Below are positions 2,804 to 12,653 of a stretch of DNA of 32,857 nucleotides, in pieces. A program made the position numbers and the translations under genes. The stretch lies in assembly GCA_022826025.1 (NCBI GenBank), contig JAJDVR010000206.1, positions 1 to 32,857 on the forward strand, in the 5' to 3' direction. Under the pieces are notes generated by a model. That model saw only the letters and a list, made by a program, of their open reading frames with translations, was not told the origin of the DNA and ran no database searches. Positions within the stretch are counted from its first letter, which is position 1, and each line of letters opens with the position of its first letter. The DNA is from Gemmatimonadota bacterium (GTDB taxonomy: Bacteria; Gemmatimonadota; Gemmatimonadetes; Longimicrobiales; Gaopeijiaceae).

Positions 2804-2832
2804 GAGGCGGGATCTCCCAGGACTCCCACGGG

Positions 2833-3354
2833 TCAGCGTTCCATGGACGCCTCCACGGCTTCCCGGGCAGCGGCCTCGATCGCCCAGGGGATGGCGGCAT
2901 CGCGATAGAGCGCGGCCCCGTTGGACAGGGTGGCGCGTTCGCCCCGTGACGGACCGCGGGAGTCAGCCGATGGGATCGGCGGCAGGCCTGTGGGCACGGA
3001 CTTCGGGCTCATCCGCGCATCCGCCTCCACCCCTGGCCTCGACGCGTCCGCTCGCGCTCGCTCCTGCAGCGCATCGGCCCCCGCCCGCCCCACCGGCGGC
3101 GCATCGGCCAGTACGCGCCCGCCACGCGTGAAGAACAGCACCGTCCCGTCCGGGCTCATCCCCACCTTGACTCGCCCCTCGTGAACCGTGCGGTGGTGCC
3201 GGCGGCAGAGGAGAACCGTGTTCCTCAGGCTCGTCTCGCCCCCGTCCGCCCAGTGCTTCACATGGTGCGCCTCCGTGAAACGGCTCGCGCATCCCGGAAA
3301 GCGGCATCCCCGGTCCCGCTCCTCCAACGCCCGCCGGATGTGCGGCGGGATCGT
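2833..3354 (-). pseudogene. 3' half of a split DUF222-HNH endonuclease gene
   Basis: This is the C-terminal part of a DUF222/13E12-type HNH protein. It contains the Zn-HNH core: CRFPGC, then HHVKHWADGGE, N and LLCRRHHR. A low-complexity tail of about 100 residues follows. The piece begins at the conserved TIPPHIRRAL motif. Upstream of that motif the reading frame continues only into foreign sequence, with a TTG at 3390 as the best available start. The matching N-terminal half lies at 9129-10187 in the same orientation and also ends at TIPPH. The two halves are therefore one gene interrupted by the intervening element. On its own this fragment would make at most a short HNH peptide. DUF222-HNH proteins are often multicopy; their role is not firmly known. 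Confidence 0.82.
3340..3354. repeat. Left attachment-site repeat (attL candidate)
   Basis: GTGCGGCGGGATCGT, matching 14 of 15 bases of the copy at 9129-9143. On the minus strand it reads ACG ATC CCG CCG CAC (TIPPH) in the HNH frame. It marks the left junction of the element. Confidence 0.75.
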
Positions 3355-3375
3355 CCGGCAGTGCGATCTATGTAA

Positions 3376-3385
3376 GTCACGTGAC
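3376..3385. repeat. 10-bp perfect palindrome near the left end
   Basis: GTCACGTGAC is a perfect palindrome 22 bases inside the left junction. It could be a protein-binding site of the element. Its function is unknown, and a chance origin is possible. Confidence 0.4.
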
Positions 3386-3415
3386 CACAACAGGATGTGC
3401 CGATTTTACATTAGT

Positions 3416-3426
3416 TGTTATCACTA
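3416..3426. promoter_or_regulatory. Candidate integrase arm-type site, left end
   Basis: TGTTATCACTA, sharing GTTATCAC with two copies near the right end (8993-9000 and 9006-9013), all in the same orientation. Short repeats at both ends, inside the core sites, are typical of arm-type binding sites of tyrosine recombinases. The assignment is inferred. Confidence 0.45.
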
Positions 3427-3589
3427 TTGATATGCCTCTTTCTGAACGACTTCCTTGGATCTCAAGAGAGGTCTGCGGACGAGTGCGAGGCCGACTTGAA
3501 GCGTTCCCTTGGCCTTGGGGAGGCGGACAGGGGCAGCGTCGGAGTCGGCTTGCTCGGGTGATGGGTCTTCCAGTAAGATCCTCCCCGCC

Positions 3590-4297
3590 ATGGGACAGAA
3601 CAAGCTGAAGGACAAAGAGCGGGGACCGTCGTGGAGGCGTTCGTTCCTCAGGAGCGCGTGCCTTGTTTTCAGTCTCTTGACGGTCCGCGTCGTGGCGCTA
3701 CAGGCCTTTACCATAACGTCCGGCTCCATGGAGCCCACGTTGATGGCGGGGGACTTCCTGCTCGTCAATAAGGCCGCGCTGGGCTCGCGAATCCCGTTCA
3801 CCGATGTCCGCGTCCCCGGCTACTCGGAGCCGAGGAGGGGGGAGATCCTAGTCTTCGATCCTCCGCACGAGGACACGCTCATCGTCGTCAAGCGGCTCAT
3901 CGGCATGCCCGGCGACACGCTGGAGATGCGGGACAAGACCTTGTATCTGAACGGGCAGGCGCAGGACGAACCATACGTGCGGCACACGGATGGCGAGCCC
4001 AATTTCGCCGTAGCCGCGATGCTGTGGCAACAAGAGATCCTCGTTGGCGGTCCGAGGGGGGATTACCTGCCGACCCGCGACACATGGGGTCCACTCGCGA
4101 TTCCCGACGGTCGGTACTTCATGCTCGGCGACCATCGCGACGAGAGTCTGGATTCACGCACTTGGGGACTTCTGGAGCGCTGGCGCTTCGAGGGGCGGAT
4201 CATCGTCCGATACTTCTCCTACAACCGGGATTCCTACCGGCCATTCCCCTTCATCCGCGAGATACGCTGGAGCCGGATCGGAACCCGACCTAGGTAG
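3590..4297 (+). CDS. lepB: Signal peptidase I (element cargo)
   Basis: This 235-residue type I signal peptidase cleaves Sec signal peptides at the outer face of the inner membrane through a Ser-Lys dyad. One N-terminal membrane segment is visible (about residues 22-42). The nucleophile is Ser46 in SGSMEPTL, the general base is Lys101 in VVKRLIGMPGDT, and the conserved box E is GDHRDESLDSRTWG at 180-193. All key residues are intact and the length is normal for a compact bacterial enzyme. The ATG at 3590 is preferred because it places the membrane segment close to the N-terminus; no strong ribosome site is visible, and an in-frame ATG at 3509 is an alternative. It lies inside the integrative element, upstream of a lipoprotein gene in the same direction. 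It is likely an accessory peptidase copy. Confidence 0.92.
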   Translation: MGQNKLKDKERGPSWRRSFLRSACLVFSLLTVRVVALQAFTITSGSMEPTLMAGDFLLVNKAALGSRIPFTDVRVPGYSEPRRGEILVFDPPHEDTLIVVKRLIGMPGDTLEMRDKTLYLNGQAQDEPYVRHTDGEPNFAVAAMLWQQEILVGGPRGDYLPTRDTWGPLAIPDGRYFMLGDHRDESLDSRTWGLLERWRFEGRIIVRYFSYNRDSYRPFPFIREIRWSRIGTRPR

Positions 4298-4570
4298 GCA
4301 CGAGAGAAATAGCTACCGTCAGTAGGGGTCGAAGACTTCGCTCGCGAGCCGTGATGGGAAGGAGAACGGAAGTTCGCGGAGGACCCGTTGGTGGCGGCGG
4401 TAACCTCCGAGGGCTCCAGCGAGCGGGAGACGTTGGAACTACAACGTTGTGCCGCAGGTCTGTTGGCGGGGACGCAGGTACCAGCACCCCAGCGCAAGCG
4501 GCCCTGAACCTTCCGGATCCGTTTCGCGGTCTATTGCTGACACGCGACCGCATGATCGCGCAGGAGACGA

Positions 4571-5683
4571 ATGTTGCAAAGGACTAGTGACCCAGTCGCG
4601 GGACGGGTAAGGCCTACGATCTGTCTCTGTCTCTTGATCCCCCTGGGTGGTTGCAATACCGAGAACTCGGCACCCTCGATGGCTGCTTTGCCCCAGATTG
4701 ACCTGCCTCCCGGCGTTGTTGTACGGGAGCTTCAGGTTCGCCGCGCACGCACGATCGAGCTAGGCGAGGACAGCGTCGGATTCGTCAATTCGATCACGGA
4801 AATCGCGCGATCGGACTCCCTGCTGTTCGTGCTCGATGGAATGGCGCAGACCATCAAGGTCTACCAGGAGTCAGACGGAGCGTTCGTGCGCAGTTTCGGG
4901 GGACGGGGTCGCGGACCGGGGGAGTTCGGCGATCCGATGGCTCTGGCTGTCTTCGATGATACTGTCTACGTACTGGATCCGACGCTTGGCCCAACAGTTT
5001 CGGTTTTCAGGCACGACGGGACGTTCATCGAGCTTCGGGGCCTGGAGGTGTCGGGCAACCCGACGGACATCATCGCGGATGCGGCGGGGCTTGTGGTCCT
5101 CACGCCTTTCCTGCCGGAGCGGGAGTCCGGCGAGTGGAATATCGCTCATCGGCTTACCCACGAAGGTGAGTGGCTTTCAAGTTCCTGCTCGCGCGACCGC
5201 CGCTTTGCGATCAGCGAAGCGGAGGGTGGCATGCTCGCCCTGATCCAGTACTCCGCTCTGACGGCAACGACGGACGCCATCAGCTGCACCCAGCCGATCT
5301 CACCGACCATTCAGGTGATTGAGGGTGAGGTACCTGGCCCGAGCTACGCACCGCCGTTCTACCAGGCGCCCGAGGATCGGCCGCTCGCGGGTGCGGCGCA
5401 GTCTGATGTGCTCGCCTTTTTATCGACCTGGACGAGTCACGGCGAGGCATATGTATGGCACGACCGCTTCCTGTCGGTCTACACAAGCCACGACGAGGAG
5501 TCGGCCACCGTCTTCAATCACTTCTTCACGTGCGTCCTGGACCGTGGTCGTGTGCAGGAGTGCGGAATGGTAGAAGGACTTGGCAGGATCGTGGATGTAC
5601 CGCACCGCGATACAATCCATGTTGAGGAGATATCTGACGCGGCTGCTCCGACAGCTATCGCGGTGCTCTCGATCGAATGGTAG
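4571..5683 (+). CDS. 6-bladed beta-propeller lipoprotein
   Basis: This is a 370-residue exported protein. The N-terminus has a hydrophobic stretch ending in the lipobox LGGC (Cys28), so it should be lipid-anchored in the envelope. The body has repeated beta-propeller blade signatures such as IKVYQESDGAFVRSFGG, the glycine-rich turn GRGRGPGEF, and VSVFRHDGTF. This matches NHL-like 6-bladed propeller proteins. Two to four Cys in the C-terminal half (CSRD, CTQP, CVLD, ECGM) could form disulfides. The start at 4571 follows AGGAG (4562-4566). The 273 bases upstream, back to the signal peptidase gene, show no credible gene. No enzymatic role can be read. A binding or scaffold function is the usual guess for this fold. 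Confidence 0.8.
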   Translation: MLQRTSDPVAGRVRPTICLCLLIPLGGCNTENSAPSMAALPQIDLPPGVVVRELQVRRARTIELGEDSVGFVNSITEIARSDSLLFVLDGMAQTIKVYQESDGAFVRSFGGRGRGPGEFGDPMALAVFDDTVYVLDPTLGPTVSVFRHDGTFIELRGLEVSGNPTDIIADAAGLVVLTPFLPERESGEWNIAHRLTHEGEWLSSSCSRDRRFAISEAEGGMLALIQYSALTATTDAISCTQPISPTIQVIEGEVPGPSYAPPFYQAPEDRPLAGAAQSDVLAFLSTWTSHGEAYVWHDRFLSVYTSHDEESATVFNHFFTCVLDRGRVQECGMVEGLGRIVDVPHRDTIHVEEISDAAAPTAIAVLSIEW

Positions 5684-5687
5684 TTCT

Positions 5688-5713
5688 TGGTCCCTTGCCG
5701 GTGTTTGGGACCA
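5688..5713 (+). terminator. Hairpin after the beta-propeller gene (weak terminator candidate)
   Basis: TGGTCCC (5688-5694) pairs with GGGACCA (5707-5713) around a 12-base loop, four bases after the stop codon. No T-tract follows, so intrinsic termination is uncertain. It may only stabilise the mRNA 3' end. Confidence 0.35.
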
Positions 5714-5726
5714 CAACCGGTCGAGG

Positions 5727-5836
5727 ATGACCAAGCCGACCTCGAAGAGCGGGCCGCCGATGCGATCCGACGAAGAGTCACCAAGAGGGATTGCGGGCTG
5801 GTCGTCGACGCCTTCCTCGACGCCGTCGAGCTATAG
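5727..5836 (+). pseudogene. Remnant of an HU/IHF-type DNA-binding protein gene
   Basis: An ATG with GAGG just before it starts MTK. A one-base deletion then shifts the frame, and the continuing frame reads ADLEERAADAI and VTKRDCGLVVDAFLDAV before a TAG. This matches the N-terminal helices of HU-family proteins (MTKADL..., ...TKKDA..VVDAF). The DNA-binding arm that should follow is missing or scrambled. I read this as a broken histone-like protein gene. The similarity was judged by eye, and chance cannot be excluded. Confidence 0.45.
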
Positions 5837-5890
5837 AGGGTCCGGGCCACCGTCGAGACGGCGCTGGCTCGAAGCACCGCTTAGGTGCTC

Positions 5891-5918
5891 AAGCAAGCAA
5901 GCAAGCAAGCAAGCAAGC
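5891..5918 (+). repeat. (AAGC)7 tetranucleotide tract
   Basis: Seven perfect tandem copies of AAGC. The tract lies at the start of a short open frame (ATG-less; it reads as KQAS repeats). Tetranucleotide tracts of this kind are slippage-prone and underlie phase variation in some bacteria. Here no convincing downstream protein is seen, so the consequence is unclear. Confidence 0.9.
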
Positions 5919-5973
5919 CAGCCGACTCCGTGTTCAACACGGCGGACTGGCAAGGGGACGCTCGGCTCCCCTT
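5917..5973. other. Two adjacent hairpins downstream of the AAGC tract
   Basis: The first hairpin has the core CCGTGTT-C-AACACGG (5928-5942), extended outward with one bulge to GCCAG (5917) and CTGGC (5951). The second is AAGGGGA (5952-5958) pairing perfectly with TCCCCTT (5967-5973) around an 8-base loop. Back to back they could be a bidirectional terminator or part of a structured RNA. No T-tract follows. Confidence 0.5.
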
Positions 5974-6325
5974 AGACCCCTGGTGTTTCCGCGTCGGTGT
6001 CGGCGCGGCGGCTCGACGCCGGCTGGAGGGACGGGGGATCCGTCCCGGAGGCCGGGGGGACCGGCGCCGAAGCGGTGGGGAACGCCGACCACGCCGCCGC
6101 CGGTCACGGCGCAGGCGCACGACGCGAAAACCGACGGCCTCGACCGGCGGTGATCGGTGGTCGGCGGGAGAATATCCGGCGCCCGGCCGCCGGGAATGTT
6201 CGGCCAGGCGGAAGCCCGGGCGGACTCCCTAACCGCGAACGCTGCCGGAGCGGAGGTTTTTTCCGGGGGGATCGAAGGGGGGCGGAGCACCCTTCGCCAG
6301 AGCGCGAATGTTTTACATCGCGTGT
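5974..6325. other. Non-coding stretch inside the element
   Basis: The stretch is very GC-rich with several overlapping open frames on both strands, none with a recognisable motif or a credible ribosome site. I see no gene here. It may be decayed sequence between the HU remnant and the repeat-flanked gene. Confidence 0.5.
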
Positions 6326-6361
6326 GCTGGCTTAGCCACAGTAAGAGTGGCTCAAGTCAGC
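6326..6361. repeat. Imperfect inverted repeat (hairpin)
   Basis: GCTGGCTTAGCCAC (6326-6339) pairs imperfectly with GTGGCTCAAGTCAGC (6347-6361) around a 7-base loop. It lies just outside the left copy of the diverged direct repeat. It may mark the boundary of that repeat unit; function unknown. Confidence 0.45.
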
Positions 6362-6387
6362 GCGGCGGAGCCGCCGAAACGGCCTCT

Positions 6388-6537
6388 CGGGGCACGGTCC
6401 GGAACAGCGTCCACCGAACCGTCGCGGGCAAGCTCCTCGGCCTCGTGGCCGCCAGCCTTACGGACGGCGCGGGCGACGGATGCCCCTTCGCTCCTTCGGT
6501 GACGGCGGCGCTTCCTACTGCACACCGGTTTTCGCCA
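6388..6537. repeat. Diverged direct repeat, copy A
   Basis: About 150 bases with clear similarity, by eye, to 7418-7571. Shared blocks include CGGAACAG, GTCGCGGGCAAGCTCCTCG, a block around ACGGACGGC, and GACGGCGGC. The two copies lie in the same orientation and flank the gene at 6558-7259. On the minus strand both encode EELARDG in an open frame, so they may derive from a coding sequence. Confidence 0.65.
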
Positions 6538-6557
6538 CGCCTCCGAAACGGTCAAGC

Positions 6558-7259
6558 TCACACCAACACTCCTCGATCGCCCCACCGGTCCACGAACTCG
6601 CGAAGTCGCCGCCGCATTCCGTTGTCCGGGTTGATGATGAAGAACGTCCGGTTGCGCCAGCGACGCCACCAGTAGGCCATTGTACCGCGAGGGAGGTGGT
6701 GTTTCCAACACAGAATCTCGTTGCGGTGGCCACCCTTGAATCTCGTGTTGTGGTGGTAGATCACGGCGGCTCGGCCTTCCGCCAGCCCCATTGCCTCACG
6801 GAGTGGGATCCGCTTGGCACTCTTCCTTCGCCTAGGGTTGAAACGGGCGTCCGGAAAGAGTCCGTTGTCAGGATCGGCAAACACGAGATCGCACTCGGTG
6901 AGTTGACTTCTCGTTCGGTCGAACCACTGCTGCCGCCAGCGCTCGTGGTTGCGGTGCTCGATGTCGTCGACCGCGAGGCGGTCGGCGGCAAAAACAGCAT
7001 CGCCGAGAATGCCCGACTCCTGGATGTTCGCGACGGACCGCCGGTCGGGGATCAGCTCCCCCAGCGCATCAAACAGCTCAGGGTCAAGGTGTCGCCACTC
7101 GTCCGGATCACGAAGATAGGCAGTGTGTCCCCCATCACCGACCGGTCCAGCGTTGGGATGCAGATACCAAGCGACGCCGAGACTTTTTTCTCCGCGGATG
7201 GCCCTCAGAAGTCCATACTTGACGAAGTCCCCGATATCCCCGACGTAGCGGTCTTGCAT
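6558..7259 (-). CDS. Uncharacterised 233-residue protein with YVGDIGDFVKYGLLR motif
   Basis: I do not recognise a named function. The start MQDRYVGDIGDFVKYGLLRA resembles a conserved N-terminus of unannotated proteins that I associate with accessory regions (recollection, not a search). Visible features are a central ECDLVFADPDNGLF, whose acidic DPDNG loop resembles the catalytic loop of Rossmann-type transferases or nucleases, and a C-terminal basic region with WRRWRNRTFFIINPDN. It has no signal peptide or membrane segment, so it is probably cytoplasmic. AGGAG lies 8 bases upstream of the ATG. The gene sits alone between two diverged direct repeats within the integrative element, which suggests cargo. 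A defence role is possible but unproven. Confidence 0.75.
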   Translation of the reverse strand: MQDRYVGDIGDFVKYGLLRAIRGEKSLGVAWYLHPNAGPVGDGGHTAYLRDPDEWRHLDPELFDALGELIPDRRSVANIQESGILGDAVFAADRLAVDDIEHRNHERWRQQWFDRTRSQLTECDLVFADPDNGLFPDARFNPRRRKSAKRIPLREAMGLAEGRAAVIYHHNTRFKGGHRNEILCWKHHLPRGTMAYWWRRWRNRTFFIINPDNGMRRRLREFVDRWGDRGVLV

Positions 7260-7417
7260 ACGGTCGCTCTCCTGTCCGATTGGCCCAGCGGCTGGGAATC
7301 ACCGAATCCGAGCGGAAGCGATTCTGAGCGAACTCACGCGGTGGCTCATCTGCGGCACGCTCGTCTCGGCGGCTGGCTCTGCCCCGCAATATAGCGCCCG
7401 TCACTGGCCGTCGGATT

Positions 7418-7571
7418 CGGGGCAACGGTTCGGAACAGAGCCGACCCGGCCGTCGCGGGCAAGCTCCTCGCCCTCTCGGTCGTCAGCCTCAACGGACGGC
7501 CAGGGCGAACAGGCCGACCCGTTACTCCTCGGCGACGGCGGCACCTTCTGCCGCACGGCCCGTTTCCGGCC
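7418..7571. repeat. Diverged direct repeat, copy B
   Basis: Second copy of the roughly 150-base repeat described at 6388-6537, in the same orientation, about 1.03 kb away. The best-conserved block covers 7450-7470. The rest of 7260-7797 shows no convincing gene on either strand. Confidence 0.65.
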
Positions 7572-7797
7572 TGCCCGTACCCCTCGGAGACCGGAGATTC
7601 GTCCATCCTGGGCGCTCTCGGAGCCCGTAGACATCCCGAAACCCCTCCAGACCGTCCGTTCCTCGACACCCGTGAGACGTCCTGGGACGTAAATTAGGAA
7701 ATCTCCTAGGTCGCCGGACCGCTCCTGCGGCCTCTCTCGCCGCCCGTGGAGGCCGGAACGCCCGGAAACGGTCTCCCGGCCCGGTCGCGGGTCCCGA

Positions 7798-8970
7798 TCA
7801 GGGCTCGGTGCTTGCCCTCCGGCCCGCGAGATACGCCGCCCAGTCCTCCATGACTCGGCGCCTGCGCTCGAACAGGTCGCTCCTGAAGTACGCTCCCTCG
7901 ACCCCGCCGACCTTGTGCGCCAGCGCCGCCTCGGCGACCGTGCGGTCCACGCCTGTCTCCGCGGCCCAGTCGCGGAACGAACTCCGCAGCCCGTGCACCG
8001 TGCTCGGGATGCCGAGGTCCCGAAACGCCCCCGCCACCTGCGGGCTCCGCAGCTCCAGCCCCTTGAAGCTGGGGAAGATCAGTCCCGATCCGTTCTCAAG
8101 CTCCCGCGCCCGCTCCAGCACCGCCAGCGCGCCCGACGACAGAGGCACCCGGTGCTCGCGTCCACCCTTCATGCGCTCCGCCGGCACCGTCCACGTCGCG
8201 CCGTCCCGGTCGATCTCCGGCCAGCGCGCCCGGCGCGCCTCGCTGCTCCTCGTCGTCGTCAGGGCCACGAACTCCAGACATAGCCGGATGCCCAGCCACG
8301 CTTCCGATGCCCGCACCGCCTCAAGCGCCGCCCCGACCTCGCCGTGGGGAAGGGCGCGGAAGTGCGTCCGGTGCCGCCCGCCCCGCGGCAGAGCCGCCGC
8401 GATGGCGTCGCCGGCCGGGTTGTCCTCCCGGTAACCCCTGGCCACCGCCCACTTCATCACCGCGCCGATGCGCCTCCGCACCCGCGCCGCCGTGGGGCGC
8501 TTCTCGTTCCAGATCGGCACCAGACAGGCCAGCACGTCGGCGGTCGTGATCTCGCCGACCCGCTTGTGTCCCAGCTTCGGGAACACGTAGTCCCGAAGAC
8601 ACTGCCGCCACTGCTTCTCGCTGGCGTTTCCCTTCCAGTTCTTGGCGTGGAGCGCGATTACCTTCTCGGCGGCCCGCTCGAACGTCGGCATGCCGCCGCT
8701 CCGGGGATCCATGCCCTTCTCGATGGCGCGCCGGTTCTCGAGCGCCTTCGCCCGCGCCTCGGCCAGCGTCACGACCGGATACGGACCCAAGCCGACGTTG
8801 AAGGGCCTGCCGCCGATCCGCATCCGCTGCGCCCACGTCTTCGACAGCCGTCCCGAGGCCGTAGGCTTGACCAACAGAGAGAGTCCGTATCCGCCGCGAC
8901 CGTCCCCGTACCGCCCCGGCCGCTTGACGGTCCGAACGAACGCGGCGCTCAGGCGTTTGGGTCGTGTCAT
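7798..8970 (-). CDS. P4-type tyrosine recombinase (integrase) of the element
   Basis: This 390-residue integrase cuts and rejoins DNA at the attachment sites through a covalent 3'-phosphotyrosine. The N-terminal arm-binding domain (about residues 1-90) has RYGDGRGGYGLSLLV and the P4-family segment GLGPYPVVTLAEARAKA. A SAM-like core-binding domain follows (about 98-185). The catalytic domain shows Arg241 (TTTRSSEARR), a basic hairpin with Lys268, His326 and Arg329 (HGLRSSFRDWA), His352 (ALAHK) and the nucleophile Tyr361 (AYFRSD). All catalytic residues are present, so it looks active. The ATG at 8970 is preferred because GGGAG lies 6 bases upstream. The gene begins about 160 bases from the right junction and reads into the element. 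A GGTTATCAC repeat lies 22 bases upstream of the start, which could allow autoregulation. Confidence 0.93.
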   Translation of the reverse strand: MTRPKRLSAAFVRTVKRPGRYGDGRGGYGLSLLVKPTASGRLSKTWAQRMRIGGRPFNVGLGPYPVVTLAEARAKALENRRAIEKGMDPRSGGMPTFERAAEKVIALHAKNWKGNASEKQWRQCLRDYVFPKLGHKRVGEITTADVLACLVPIWNEKRPTAARVRRRIGAVMKWAVARGYREDNPAGDAIAAALPRGGRHRTHFRALPHGEVGAALEAVRASEAWLGIRLCLEFVALTTTRSSEARRARWPEIDRDGATWTVPAERMKGGREHRVPLSSGALAVLERARELENGSGLIFPSFKGLELRSPQVAGAFRDLGIPSTVHGLRSSFRDWAAETGVDRTVAEAALAHKVGGVEGAYFRSDLFERRRRVMEDWAAYLAGRRASTEP

Positions 8971-8991
8971 GCGGTGCTCCCGGCGGATTTT

Positions 8992-9015
8992 GGTTATCAC
9001 CATAGGTTATCACTA
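8992..9015. promoter_or_regulatory. Paired candidate integrase arm-type sites, right end
   Basis: Two direct copies of GGTTATCACYA (8992-9002 and 9005-9015) lie 13 bases apart, between the integrase start and the right junction. A third copy lies at the left end (3416-3426). The layout fits arm-type sites or an integrase/excisionase-controlled promoter. Confidence 0.5.
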
Positions 9016-9128
9016 CATGACCAAGACTACACGAAACCGCCTGAGAGGTCAACGGACAGACAATACAAGTGATGGCAATGTGTTAGGCAGCATTACGATA
9101 CGTTATGGGACCTTGCTGAACGCCTATA

Positions 9129-9143
9129 GTGCGGAGGGATCGT
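9129..9143. repeat. Right attachment-site repeat (attR candidate)
   Basis: GTGCGGAGGGATCGT, one mismatch to 3340-3354. On the minus strand it reads ACG ATC CCT CCG CAC (TIPPH), in frame with the N-terminal half of the HNH gene. It marks the right junction of the element. Confidence 0.75.
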
Positions 9144-10187
9144 GCGCGTCTTGCGCCCCACGCTCAGCACCGATCCGTCCTTCGCATGCACCATCGCCAC
9201 GACCGCGGCGTCGCACGCCATCCGCCGCGACGTTTCCGCGGAAACGCGGACCCCGTCCAGATCCGAGCGCCCGGGCTCGCCTTCCGCCGCCAGAGTCGCG
9301 GCGTCGCAGTGGACCATGACCTGGTAGCGCTCCGCGCGGGTACCGGATTCGACGCGTGGTTCGCCGAGGTCACCGCCGTCCGAGTCATGAGAGCCGTCGC
9401 ATTCGCGCCTTCCGAAGCCCGCCGACAGCGCCCGCTCCGCCAGCAGCCCGACCGCGTCCGCACGGCGCTGCCTGGGCTTCGGTTCGGCATCGCCGGCAGC
9501 GCGCGAATCGTCGGCAGCATGCTCATCGCCGCTAGCGCGGGCAACGCTGGAGCCGCGCGAATCGCCGGCGCCCTCTTCGCGCCGGAACAGCGCATCGGAT
9601 GCCGCTTCCACGGCCCGCATCAGCACCGCCCCGACCTCCGGTTCAAGCCGCCCCTTCACCACGTACATCCCGTCGCCGTCCACGAAGACCGAGAAGGTTC
9701 GGCTGCGGTGCCGGGCCTCCTCGGCCGTCAGCTCGCCCTCGCGCGACAGCTTCTTCCACATGCGCACCATCCCCTCCAGTCTTGCCGCCGAACCGGCCTG
9801 CGCGAACTCGAGCAGCTCGGCTTCGCTTGCGGGCGTCGCCACGCGGGTGAGCGCCCGCACCTTCGTGTAAGAGATCCGGCCTTCCCGAAGAGCCTCGGCG
9901 GTCTGCGGCAGGCCCGCGAGTGCACGGGCCGTCCGGACCCGTTCGCGCGCCGGGCCGATCTTGATGCCGATTCTCCAGGCCAGCCACTCGGCGCAGGAGG
10001 AGTACTCGCCCTTCCAGCCGCCCCGGCGATCGAACTCGGCGATCAGGGCCATCATCCGCGCCTCGGCGGAGTTGATGCCCGCCGCCAGCTCCGCGATGCG
10101 TTCGCCGAGGCGGTAGAGTTCGTCGTCGCAATCATCAGCAACGCCGGCATCGGAGGGACCGGGGAGGAGGTCCGGAGATGCGATCAT
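9129..10187 (-). pseudogene. 5' half of a split DUF222-HNH endonuclease gene
   Basis: This is the N-terminal DUF222 part of a 13E12-type protein, about 353 residues up to the conserved TIPPH. It has a helical N-terminal domain with WKGEYSSCAEWLAWRIGI and RERVRTARALAGLPQTAEAL, then VDGDGMYVVKGRLEPEVGAVL, a variable low-complexity middle, and the pre-HNH segment CDAAVVAMVHAKDG. The frame then enters element sequence and stops 11 codons later (9093). The start at 10187 is fixed by AGGAG 5 bases upstream. The Zn-HNH part lies 5.8 kb away at 2833-3354. A stable truncated product without a nuclease domain is possible. The promoter of this gene now points at the integrase. Confidence 0.85.
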
Positions 10188-10394
10188 TGTTTCTCCTAAC
10201 ATGAGATGGTGCAATGATTTATGTACCAATATAACACCGCCCGAATCGGCCTCTCAGGATGGCCTGTACTGGCCTAAATCGGGTTGGGAGACCTCCGAAG
10301 GAAGAAGGGGCCCAGTTCGCCGTCAGAGGGCCCGTGAGCCCCTCGAAGGGGGAACCGGCTCTGGATCCCGGACATCCTCGAACCGTGAGACTCA

Positions 10395-10537
10395 GACTCC
10401 GTCAATGGCAGAACGGGACTACCGGATGTGAATTCGGCCGCACCGGCCGCTGGGTCAGTGCGACCCCAGGATCCTCGGACTCCGTCAATGGCAGAATGGG
10501 ACTACCAGATGTGAATTCGGGCCGGACCGGCTGCTGG
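10395..10537. repeat. Two 60-bp direct repeats in an intergenic region
   Basis: Copies at 10395-10453 and 10478-10537 share GACTCCGTCAATGGCAGAA, GGGACTACC, GATGTGAATTCGG and a GC-rich tail with only a few differences; the period is 83 bases. The surrounding 10188-10613 region contains no credible gene. It also holds the promoter region of the DUF222 gene, which is AT-rich around 10205-10235. The role of the repeat is unknown. Confidence 0.85.
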
Positions 10538-10613
10538 CGACGCGATGCTGGCGGCGCCGTTCAGCAACCCCGGGACGCGCCGGTTGGAGACAGTCGCGAT
10601 CCGCGAAGCCGGC

Positions 10614-11009
10614 TCACGCGCCCGGGATCACCCGGATGTCGGGACACTGCAGGAGTGACTCGTCCGCCGTGACCAGGATGAGTTCGTGCACCACGGCGGT
10701 GGCCGCGATGAAGCGGTCGGCCGGATCGTCATGACCGAGGCGGATGCTCCGGCTGCCGAGCGCGATGTCGAACGTCAAGGGGACCTCACGCATGGGCCGG
10801 ACGGTCAGGGCGGTGCGGATCCAGCTCCAGGGATCGGGGCGGAGGAGCACGCGTCCCTTTTCGGCCAGCACCAGCGCCTCCCAGACGCTGACGGCCGAAA
10901 GCGCCAGGGTGTTCGCCGGATCGATCAGTTCGCTGCACGCCCGGTCGGAAAGCCGATCGGGATCCAGCAGGCTCCAGAGCCAGATGTGGGTGTCGAGGAG
11001 GAGATTCAC
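10614..11009 (-). CDS. vapC: PIN-domain toxin (VapC/FitB type)
   Basis: This 131-residue PIN-domain ribonuclease toxin would cleave RNA with a Mg-dependent acidic cluster. The acidic residues visible are Asp6 (LLLDTHIWLW), Glu44 (SVWEAL), Asp95/Asp98 (DDPADRFIAATA) and Asp116 (VTADESL), all intact. The start is a GTG at 11009 that overlaps the stop of the upstream antitoxin gene (GTGA), giving tight translational coupling. Upstream ATGs in this frame would overlap the antitoxin extensively and do not fit the family's N-terminus. Neutralisation by the neighbouring antitoxin is inferred from the gene arrangement. Confidence 0.92.
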   Translation of the reverse strand: MNLLLDTHIWLWSLLDPDRLSDRACSELIDPANTLALSAVSVWEALVLAEKGRVLLRPDPWSWIRTALTVRPMREVPLTFDIALGSRSIRLGHDDPADRFIAATAVVHELILVTADESLLQCPDIRVIPGA

Positions 11010-11398
11010 GGCTTCCGGACATCGTTGGGCTCGCCGATGTGCGAGCGCAGTACGGCCCACTCGGAGGGTTCGGTCGCCGGGGACACGATGTCGCCGACGA
11101 TCTCACCGACATCGCTCATGGCGCCCATCCATTCTCCGCTGCCGGACTGGATACCAGCGCCCGTGTCAGGGGCTGGCCCGGCCGCCTCGGCCACAGTCTC
11201 CCGGACGCCCGGATTCGCCCGGTATCTGGCAGCCATCCGGGCTCGCTCGCGCACGATGCCGAGCGTGGATCTCGGGGCCGCGGAGCGGGCAAGCAGGTAG
11301 CGCAGTTCTCCCTCGAGCGAGCGATGGTTCGCCCTGGCTCGCGCCTTGAGGGCGGCGATGACGTCGTCGTCGACGTTGCGAATTGTGAGTACGCCCAT
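11006..11398 (-). CDS. FitA/VapB-like ribbon-helix-helix antitoxin
   Basis: This is a 130-residue antitoxin. The N-terminal 45 residues form an Arc/MetJ-type ribbon-helix-helix domain: GVLTIRNVDDDVIAALKARA, then NHRSLEGELRYLL. That domain binds its own promoter as a dimer. The C-terminal part, longer than in FitA (about 80 residues in total), should wrap the PIN toxin. GGAGG lies 4 bases before the ATG. It is the first gene of the pair and overlaps the toxin start by four bases. The long tail (about residues 70-130) is unusual and of unknown role. Confidence 0.88.
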   Translation of the reverse strand: MGVLTIRNVDDDVIAALKARARANHRSLEGELRYLLARSAAPRSTLGIVRERARMAARYRANPGVRETVAEAAGPAPDTGAGIQSGSGEWMGAMSDVGEIVGDIVSPATEPSEWAVLRSHIGEPNDVRKP

Positions 11399-11465
11399 GC
11401 GTCCTCCGTGCGCGTGAGGATGGCGGTGACGGTGTCTTCAGCGGTGGTGTGACGGCGTCGTCAGC

Positions 11466-11513
11466 GATGATGACAGCGTAACATATGCGAAACGCCTTCA
11501 TTATGCCATCATC
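11466..11513. promoter_or_regulatory. Candidate autoregulatory inverted repeat upstream of the antitoxin
   Basis: GATGATGACA (11466-11475) and TGCCATCATC (11504-11513) are inverted with one mismatch, 28 bases apart, in an AT-richer patch about 70-115 bases upstream of the antitoxin start. The arrangement suits an RHH antitoxin operator. FitA binds a related TGCTATCA-type repeat, but with a different arm order and spacing, so this is inference only. Confidence 0.4.
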
Positions 11514-11573
11514 AAACCGAGCGCCCTGCCGATCGGCGGGTTTGACTTCTGGGGACGGCAAGAACTCCCCCCC

Positions 11574-12653
11574 CTACAGCACCTCCCACTCCACGCCGTC
11601 GAACTGGCGAACGAAATCGGCGCCGTACGCCGATGACGGCGTCTGATATCCGGGCTTGAAGTCGCCCCTCAGCGCTCGCACTCCGATCGCCACCAGGGCC
11701 TTTGCGGTGAATCCGTAGGGATCGGGAACGCGCATGCGGGCGGCGGCGCGCCGGCCCCGGGCATCCTCGATTTCCGCGACCATGATCCCCTCGCTCGTCC
11801 CGCGCTCGGCGTCGCTCGGTCCCGGAGGTCCGCGGTCAACCATTCCGCGCAGCAGCGCCTGGGCCGCCCGTCCGGCCAGCAGCCAGCCGAGCCACCGGCT
11901 CAGCCTCATCAGCCGCGGGAGTCTTCTTCCCGCGCGATTGTAGGTCTCGATGTTCTCGATTCCCGTCGACCACCAGGCCGTCGACACGTCCGTGAGAGGG
12001 GTCACGAGAGCTTCGGTCGGCCCTCGCCCGAAGTCGAAGTCGTGCCGCAGGCTGCCCGCGGTGACCCGCCTGATCTCGCCGTCGCGCCGGATGCGCATCG
12101 CGTTTACGCTCTCGAGGGCGGTCTTGATCGTGCCGCGCGAGGCTCCGGAGCGCACCCACAGACCCAGCCGCAGAATGCGTCCCCCGGGATGCCGCGCGGC
12201 GAGATCGGCGATCAGGCAATCGCTCGGCACGACATCGAAGCCGGCGGCGGGCAGCACCATGATCCCCGCCGCGCTCGCCTCCGCGTCCCGGGCCGCGAGC
12301 GCTTCGCACACGGCGATCTCGCCGGTGATGTCCACATAGTGGGTGCGGGCCTCGAGACACGCCTCGAACATCGGCAGCGCCGTCCGCGAGAAGGGCCCGG
12401 CGCAGTGGAGCACCACATCGATGTCCTCCAGGGCCGCCGCGATCCCGGCCGCGTCGTCCAGGTCGAACGCGCGCGTCTCAGGCGGCCCGCGCCGGGATCC
12501 CCCGCCCGCAGTCACGGAATCGCCCATCGCCCCGAGCTTCCCCGCATCGCGGCCGGCGAGCACGGGCCACACGCCGGCCTCGACCGCCTCGGACGCGACC
12601 AGCCGGCCGGTGTAGCCGGTCGCGCCGTAGATCATCAGCTTTCGTTCGCGCAT
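11574..12653 (-). CDS. Saccharopine dehydrogenase-like oxidoreductase (trans-acting enoyl reductase type)
   Basis: This is a 359-residue NAD(P)-dependent oxidoreductase of the saccharopine dehydrogenase-like family. The N-terminal Rossmann fold has the nucleotide loop YGATGYTGR (Gly10, Gly13, Gly16). It is followed by ALEDIDVVLHCAGPFSR, HYVDITGE and LPAAGFDVVPSD, the conserved signature blocks of this family and of mycobacterial trans-acting enoyl reductases. The C-terminal domain ends with GADFVRQFDGVEWEV. The start at 12653 sits right before the Rossmann strand. An in-frame ATG 36 bases upstream would add an unlikely basic leader. The gene stands between two toxin-antitoxin pairs and has no operon partner. 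The substrate is unknown; true saccharopine dehydrogenase activity is unlikely. Confidence 0.85.
   Translation of the reverse strand: MRERKLMIYGATGYTGRLVASEAVEAGVWPVLAGRDAGKLGAMGDSVTAGGGSRRGPPETRAFDLDDAAGIAAALEDIDVVLHCAGPFSRTALPMFEACLEARTHYVDITGEIAVCEALAARDAEASAAGIMVLPAAGFDVVPSDCLIADLAARHPGGRILRLGLWVRSGASRGTIKTALESVNAMRIRRDGEIRRVTAGSLRHDFDFGRGPTEALVTPLTDVSTAWWSTGIENIETYNRAGRRLPRLMRLSRWLGWLLAGRAAQALLRGMVDRGPPGPSDAERGTSEGIMVAEIEDARGRRAAARMRVPDPYGFTAKALVAIGVRALRGDFKPGYQTPSSAYGADFVRQFDGVEWEVL

Follow-up and report, generated by a model that had tools for sequence, protein, structure and literature searches.

Integrases of the P4 type usually, though not obligatorily, target tRNA genes, and integrases in general are best known for one att site per genome. 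Bibb and Hatfull are said to have reported, in 2002, the prophage-like element phiRv1 in REP13E12 of Mycobacterium tuberculosis. Two sources describe phiRv1 as an integrative element residing in the REP13E12 repeat, with a serine recombinase (PMC9317374), and group together REP13E12, HNH endonuclease, and DUF222 (PMC10589994). The phiRv1 element in REP13E12 is the nearest precedent for the gene family considered here. For genomic islands, a third source states that many attB sites sit in protein-coding genes and that islands in such genes often reconstitute the gene (PMC12884075). A literature search with subscription papers largely outside its coverage returned no description of an integrase element targeting a DUF222-HNH motif. 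We analyzed a 32,857-bp stretch of DNA from a Gemmatimonadota bacterium of the Longimicrobiales (contig JAJDVR010000206.1 of assembly GCA_022826025.1), referred to as the window, in which one DUF222-HNH gene is interrupted by a 5,789-bp integrative element. We conclude, with a probability of roughly 94%, that a tyrosine-integrase element integrated site-specifically at the R-T-I-P-P-H codons of a multicopy DUF222-HNH gene, cutting DUF222 off HNH.

The split gene and its uninterrupted orthologue

The two halves of the gene, both on the minus strand, and the junctions of the element are as follows.

2833..3354, minus strand: C-terminal half of the split gene, HNH nuclease domain (PF01844, 32.2 bits, cut-off 21.4)
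3340..3354, unstranded: far core copy (HNH side), GTGCGGCGGGATCGT; the short empty-site alignment stops at 3354
3355..9143, unstranded: integrated element, 5,789 bp with one core copy counted (core-to-core distance); absent at the orthologous site of genome G006
9093..9128, minus strand: element end read, by translation, as the tail of the DUF222 half, 11 residues (YRRSARSHNVS) and a stop
9129..9143, unstranded: integrase-side core copy, GTGCGGAGGGATCGT; the short empty-site alignment begins here
9129..10187, minus strand: N-terminal half of the split gene, DUF222 (PF02720, 90.3 bits, cut-off 24.4)

The initial annotation of the window had proposed that two gene halves in one orientation end at the same motif, that a 15-bp imperfect repeat marks both junctions in the same codon phase, and that the rebuilt frame would comprise about 521 codons. 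These proposals were borne out: the PF01844 and PF02720 halves both end at the R-T-I-P-P-H codons, the two core copies are identical at 14 of 15 positions, with the sole mismatch at a third codon position, and the 353 codons before the element and 169 after it (stop included) give, by arithmetic, 521 residues. The 15-bp repeat by itself is weak evidence, not significant, and was not used as stand-alone evidence; 229 pairs of 15-mers in the window lie more than 200 bp apart and mismatch at no more than one position, versus 127 to 173 in controls consisting of 10 first-order Markov sequences. The repeat is significant because it lies at both homology breakpoints, because the empty-site alignments overlap there, and because 19 other junctions, found in related genomes (9 to 10 per side; the twin genomes G008 and G009 both counted), break at the same codons.

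An uninterrupted gene in a related genome had been named as a check on the split, and the orthologue was found in G006, a genome of the same genus (genomes, contigs, and loci carry the prefixes G, C, and L). On contig C62 of that genome (L260), the gene is a 590-aa open frame carrying both PF02720 and PF01844. Window positions 9129-10164 align to 8583-9654 of L260 and positions 2829-3357 to 8072-8600; short alignments across both junctions overlap at L260 by the 15-bp core GTGCGGNGGRATCGT and longer alignments by 18 bp. The right flank (window positions 10163-12647) matches L260 beside the gene at 86%, and two more blocks farther right match it at 88 to 93%, in changed order; overall, the identities on this side span 86 to 94%. 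The intact orthologous locus led us to reject the proposal that the halves are separate paralogous genes merely resembling a split gene, an extremely improbable reading for which it could be said that each half is open on its own and that in L177 and L179 (identical to loci L063 and L064), an in-frame ATG for the far half lies inside the element. That proposal also runs against the abundance of full-length copies: by hand count among the matches listed in 11 genomes, at least 33 DUF222-HNH copies of the main subfamily are intact, as the initial annotation had anticipated in calling the target family multicopy. A copy was counted as intact if its profile match started at or before position 74 and ended at or after position 546, and one of the 33 has a flagged internal stop. 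The observation of one gene split at RTIPPH is confirmed.

A stop codon supplied by the element lies 11 residues past the core at 10 of the 11 integrase-side ends found in the genus, the eleventh (L183) reaching the contig edge first. The target gene is broken, not rebuilt, and its HNH nuclease domain is severed from the DUF222 domain. Differences in the 11-residue tail, compared by eye, mostly alter the amino acid; for this reason, the short tail looks constrained as DNA rather than as protein.

Recurrence of the insertion point and layout of the element ends

Relatives were sought in 154 genomes of the order, with at most 12 candidates scored per genome. Among the matches listed, 10 integrases are 93 to 100% identical to that of the window; every one belongs to the window's genus and stands immediately next to a DUF222 gene whose break falls at the same profile position. 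Thus, the other DUF222-HNH genes broken at the same codons that had been suggested as a further check were found beside near-identical integrases. In the named collection, made up of the best 79 loci of 497 candidates, the seven loci at 93 to 95% are all inside broken DUF222 genes. For the remaining 72, no such location was observed, a few of them starting too near the integrase to judge; in L090, a DUF222-HNH frame lies some 4 kb from the integrase.

The integrase-side end pattern gave 11 exact matches in 8 of the 11 genomes of the genus, all at the RTIPPH motif: two in G008, three in G009, and one in each of six others. In line with the many landing sites per genome that had been predicted, up to three elements occur in one genome. 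The pattern read backward, as a control, gave one match in G008 and one in G009. When up to 3 mismatches were allowed, the only match outside the genus (G119, 3 mismatches) was taken as chance, its stretch (L213) being devoid of integrase or DUF222 matches. Ten far ends were located, which brings the total to 21 junctions (11 integrase-side and 10 far-side, twins included), and the insertion point is identical in 21 of 21. Taken together, the orthologous site is empty with one core copy, and the same ends and insertion point recur in independent copies.

We considered whether a single insertion had been multiplied via duplication of an already broken gene, without repeated targeting. G002 and G003 share one flank, G002 and G008:C47 share the other, and G008:C11 and G009:C169 are the same locus, as such duplication would have it. 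However, seven N-side flanks form five groups and eight C-side flanks also form five groups, with no mutual match between different groups beyond short stretches; the wobble base of the core varies between and within elements; the locus common to G009:C169 and G010:C127 differs in far-end sequence and adjacent frames; and the window's locus is empty in G006. Duplication is false for several sites and may be valid for a few, and as the explanation of the whole set it is very unlikely.

The integrase and the sites proposed to be of the arm type are positioned as follows.

3417..3424, unstranded: proposed arm-type site GTTATCAC, the only one toward the far end, which it approaches to 84-85 bp; position shared by all 5 complete elements
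7798..9003, minus strand: P4-type tyrosine integrase, 401 aa (PF13356 + PF22022 + PF00589)
8993..9000, unstranded: GTTATCAC, proposed arm-type site, by its position among the fixed sites of complete elements
9006..9013, unstranded: GTTATCAC, second proposed arm-type site on the integrase side, spaced 13 bp from that at 8993..9000

The domains Arm-DNA-bind_3, Phage_int_M, and Phage_integrase, all above cut-off, form the P4-type architecture and agree with the assignment made in the initial annotation; a sequence comparison with the PDB matched, among others, the CP4-like integrase 3jtz (E 2.2e-5). The probable start of translation is 8970 (MTRPKRL) rather than the start of the long frame, since the first codons of the longer frame run over two arm-type sites. 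Scanning of the window revealed no tRNA or tmRNA gene, and a tRNA target was thereby ruled out for its element. Among 111 loci from sets that overlap, some of which offer little sequence upstream, two (L094 and L110) have a tRNA gene, tRNA (Val) in both, no more than 1.5 kb ahead of the integrase. In the four long frames that the window element carries, Pfam detected no relaxase or conjugation genes and no phage structural or packaging genes.

Five elements have both ends on a single contig: those of the window (5,789 bp), G002:C133 (3,779 bp), G009:C169 (3,184 bp), G010:C1 (3,172 bp), and G009:C70 (27,054 bp). Their cargo differs, and their ends, core, and site layout are common. Each contains GTGATAAC exactly three times and always on one strand: twice on the integrase side, +130 and +143 from the core there, and once toward the far end, at a distance of 84-85 bp. 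The motif is absent from approximately 54 kb outside the five elements, and its chance expectation is 0.05 in the 5.8-kb element and 0.23 in the 27-kb element. These sites are probably the arm-type sites of the integrase, for its N-terminal domain, because their layout matches that of lambda-type integrases. The pair with the exact 13-bp spacing occurs in 9 of the 79 integrase loci, seven of the target clade and two 70%-identical relatives; among these loci, the spacing rule is seen in the two clades and not across the wider integrase family. A search of IMG/VR did not find the arm pair. In three of the five complete elements, the two ends do not have the same wobble base between ACGATYCC and CCGCAC, which suggests strand exchange on one side of that base.

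In the mechanism that we propose, the N-terminal domain of the integrase would bind the GTGATAAC arm sites, and its central and catalytic domains would bind the ACGATYCCNCCGCAC core. Strand exchange would occur within ACGATYCC or within CCGCAC, not across the intervening wobble base. Many paralogues share the target motif at the DNA level, and a single genome would therefore offer many landing sites. A transposon generating a 15-bp target-site duplication with a loose preference would likewise leave a short direct repeat flanking the element. Yet none of the four long frames in the window element is a transposase by Pfam, the insertion point is the same at every junction, 3 of 5 repeat pairs are mismatched at one base, as a fresh duplication would not be, and a tyrosine integrase lies at a fixed distance from the end. 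A transposon is hardly conceivable on this evidence.

That the element was once site-specific and is now immobile is a different proposal, which we consider unlikely. It draws on the failure to find a circle joint and on truncated integrase remnants in G000:C113 and G006:C6; against it stand an intact integrase frame, 93 to 95% identical to copies elsewhere, and intact ends, core, and arm-type sites. Allowing up to 2 mismatches, the joint pattern retrieved from the assemblies nothing beyond the 11 integrated ends and two matches in G032, each with 2 mismatches, and it retrieved nothing from IMG/VR. As for the remnants, L023 (G000:C113) and L180 (G006:C6) hold the same truncated C-terminal integrase piece of 185-186 residues, 90 to 91% identical, in two species; this piece is an old remnant, and the stretches read around it contain no DUF222 match.

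Several points weigh against site-specific integration as we describe it. No exact excised circle joint was present in the 154 assemblies or in IMG/VR, so that present mobility is unseen. All genomes are draft assemblies, with several ends at contig edges, and the insertions of G008 and G009 are near-identical, hence not independent. The catalytic residues R, K, H-x-x-R, H, and Y were read by eye as TRSSE, MKGGREH, HGLRSSF, LAHKVGG, and GAYFRS, which we take to be the corresponding motifs. The right flank shows one local rearrangement further out in G006. The left flank of the window, a solute-binding-protein gene, is not beside the gene in G006, and the two left flanks are bridged only via G005. 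There, G005:C198 (L262) holds both the left flank of the window (92-94%) and a piece of the left flank of G006 (94%) and therefore indicates the same locus in the three genomes.

Cargo, other breaks in the family, and a sister clade

The frames carried between the ends of the window element, apart from the integrase, are the following.

3509..4297, plus strand: signal peptidase I (LepB), likely start 3590 (PF10502; TIGR02227 134 bits, cut-off 47)
4571..5683, plus strand: 6-bladed beta-propeller protein, cargo (PF17170 30.5 bits, cut-off 22.9)
6558..7259, minus strand: 233-aa protein, cargo; unmatched in Pfam, NCBIfam, and PADLOC at E 0.001

A signal peptidase I gene adjoins 5 of the 10 far ends (window, G002, G009:C169, G010:C1, and G008:C11; loci L172, L177, L179, and L207 besides the window), the occurrences in G009:C169 and G008:C11 representing a single locus of the twin genomes. 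Near the far ends of L249, L255, L256, and L184, the gene is missing, L251 being too short to judge. All 11 genomes have 2 to 5 signal peptidase matches each, indicating that the gene borne by the element is an extra copy. The 27-kb element of G009:C70 carries McrBC-, AbiU2-, TonB-receptor-, exonuclease-, and Ig-like proteins, and in G007:C8 (L173), whose far end is not seen, a relaxase (PF03432) lies about 2 kb past the integrase on the element side. A PADLOC scan of five proteins, four of them from the window element, detected no defense family. Cargo is interchangeable among elements with common ends. Relatives of the carried signal peptidase, possibly the cargo of other elements, occur in L203-L206 and L208-L212, in stretches without DUF222 or window-integrase matches.

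Among the matches listed in the 11 genomes, DUF222-HNH genes are broken at four positions of the family, given here in profile coordinates.

Site A (VRMWKK): 9 N-parts, 8 C-parts
Site B (RTIPPH): 11 N-parts, 10 C-parts
Site C (LLCRRHH): 5 N-parts, 9 C-parts
Site D (LFRR): 3 N-parts, 4 C-parts

These counts take in the G008/G009 twins, doubly broken copies, and some contig-edge fragments, and part of the loci were read. A second tyrosine integrase family adjoins site A in L261, L279, L280, and L281, site C in L256, L262 (4762-5919), L264, and L288, with a partial one in L282, and site D in L278. All five members scanned (L256, L262, L278, L280, and L288) match PF00589, and none has an arm domain in Pfam. 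The core is GCGCATGTGGAAGAAG at site A, as derived from two different contigs, CGCTGTTCCGGCG at site D, and GCTCTGCCGGCGG at site C in L256, with 9 bp of that core exact in L262. Some copies are broken twice: the orthologue of the window gene at sites A and C in G005 (L262), and one DUF222-HNH copy at both B and C in G008/G009. The second family has 158 matches in the 11 genomes (E up to 1e-60, 1 to 33 per genome). Just 13 of those listed adjoin DUF222 fragments by coordinates; most therefore have other targets. Two or three members stand in a row in G009:C118 (12487-15849), G001:C42, G001:C47, and G010:C74, an arrangement reminiscent of recombinase-in-trio elements.

The 70%-identical sister integrases of L069 and L095 have the same arm pair as the window clade. 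By hand count, 130 bp back from that pair lies GACAACGGC[T/A]CCCGG, within the codons of YGGLQDNG. The gene belongs to the Sortilin/BNR propeller family, for which each of four searched genomes has 14 to 21 matches. In most of these matches, similarity ends at residues 465-470 of 486, i.e., the predicted insertion point; the open frames of the homologues are mostly 900 to 1,200 aa, and the five intact homologues shown continue with DNGSW. The far end of this insertion was not found in approximately 40 kb of further G020 sequence or elsewhere among the loci analyzed. The BNR-like insertion is thus known from one end, and a single ancestral event may account for both genomes that carry it. The arm-site pair and core spacing are thus the same in the two clades compared, and the core sequence differs. 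The next-closest integrase (L039/L068, 73-74%) adjoins neither the DUF222-HNH nor the BNR family. Upstream frames in the loci of 14 relatives were inspected by eye, and in several, the frame beside the integrase resembles a whole divergent gene. In L073, two tandem copies of an uncharacterized family (MYTTC.FC...), also present by L071, lie upstream of a 64% integrase relative.

We lean, slightly beyond even odds, toward a broader account. In this lineage, P4-type integrases would have shifted their target from tRNA genes to the codons for conserved protein motifs in high-copy families, RTIPPH of DUF222-HNH and, in the sister clade, YGGLQDNG of Sortilin/BNR. DUF222-HNH genes would be a genus-wide landing platform for at least two integrase families at four motifs, with broken copies about as common as intact ones and with each element severing or disabling a nuclease.

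Similarity between DUF222-HNH copies reaches past the gene borders; the genes themselves may consequently belong to a repeated unit. Segments about 40 bp long at window positions 10399-10544 recur upstream of DUF222 genes in L026, L027, and L028. Just outside the split gene, at 10614-11398 on the minus strand, a PIN-domain protein adjoins a FitA-like ribbon-helix-helix protein, likely a toxin-antitoxin pair.

Comparison with known systems

The integration mechanism is ordinary, and the target strategy is unusual. A conserved coding motif in a repeated family would provide a transposon-like copy number with site specificity kept. Natural attB variants and cargo swaps make core tolerance, arm-site function, and clade retargeting readable from sequence and testable. 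The elements also leave a natural catalogue of broken genes in DUF222-HNH, a widespread family of unknown function, and make testable the question of whether the elements or the host benefit from loss of the nuclease domain.

The phiRv1 element resembles the window element as an integrative element residing in the DUF222/HNH-related REP13E12 repeat. It differs in being an actinobacterial prophage with a serine recombinase, whereas the recombinase of the window is of the tyrosine type and its element combines a P4-type integrase with other cargo in another phylum. Many coding-gene islands rebuild their target, unlike the element in the window, and conserved motifs of high-copy families are not mentioned as targets in the excerpt available (PMC12884075).

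P4/CP4-type elements at tRNA genes have the same integrase architecture, a short direct-repeat core, and the integrase by one end, to which the inferred sites in both arms of the window element add a further likeness. They differ from it in that the window target is a protein motif of a multicopy family, the gene is broken and not rebuilt, and several copies occur per genome.

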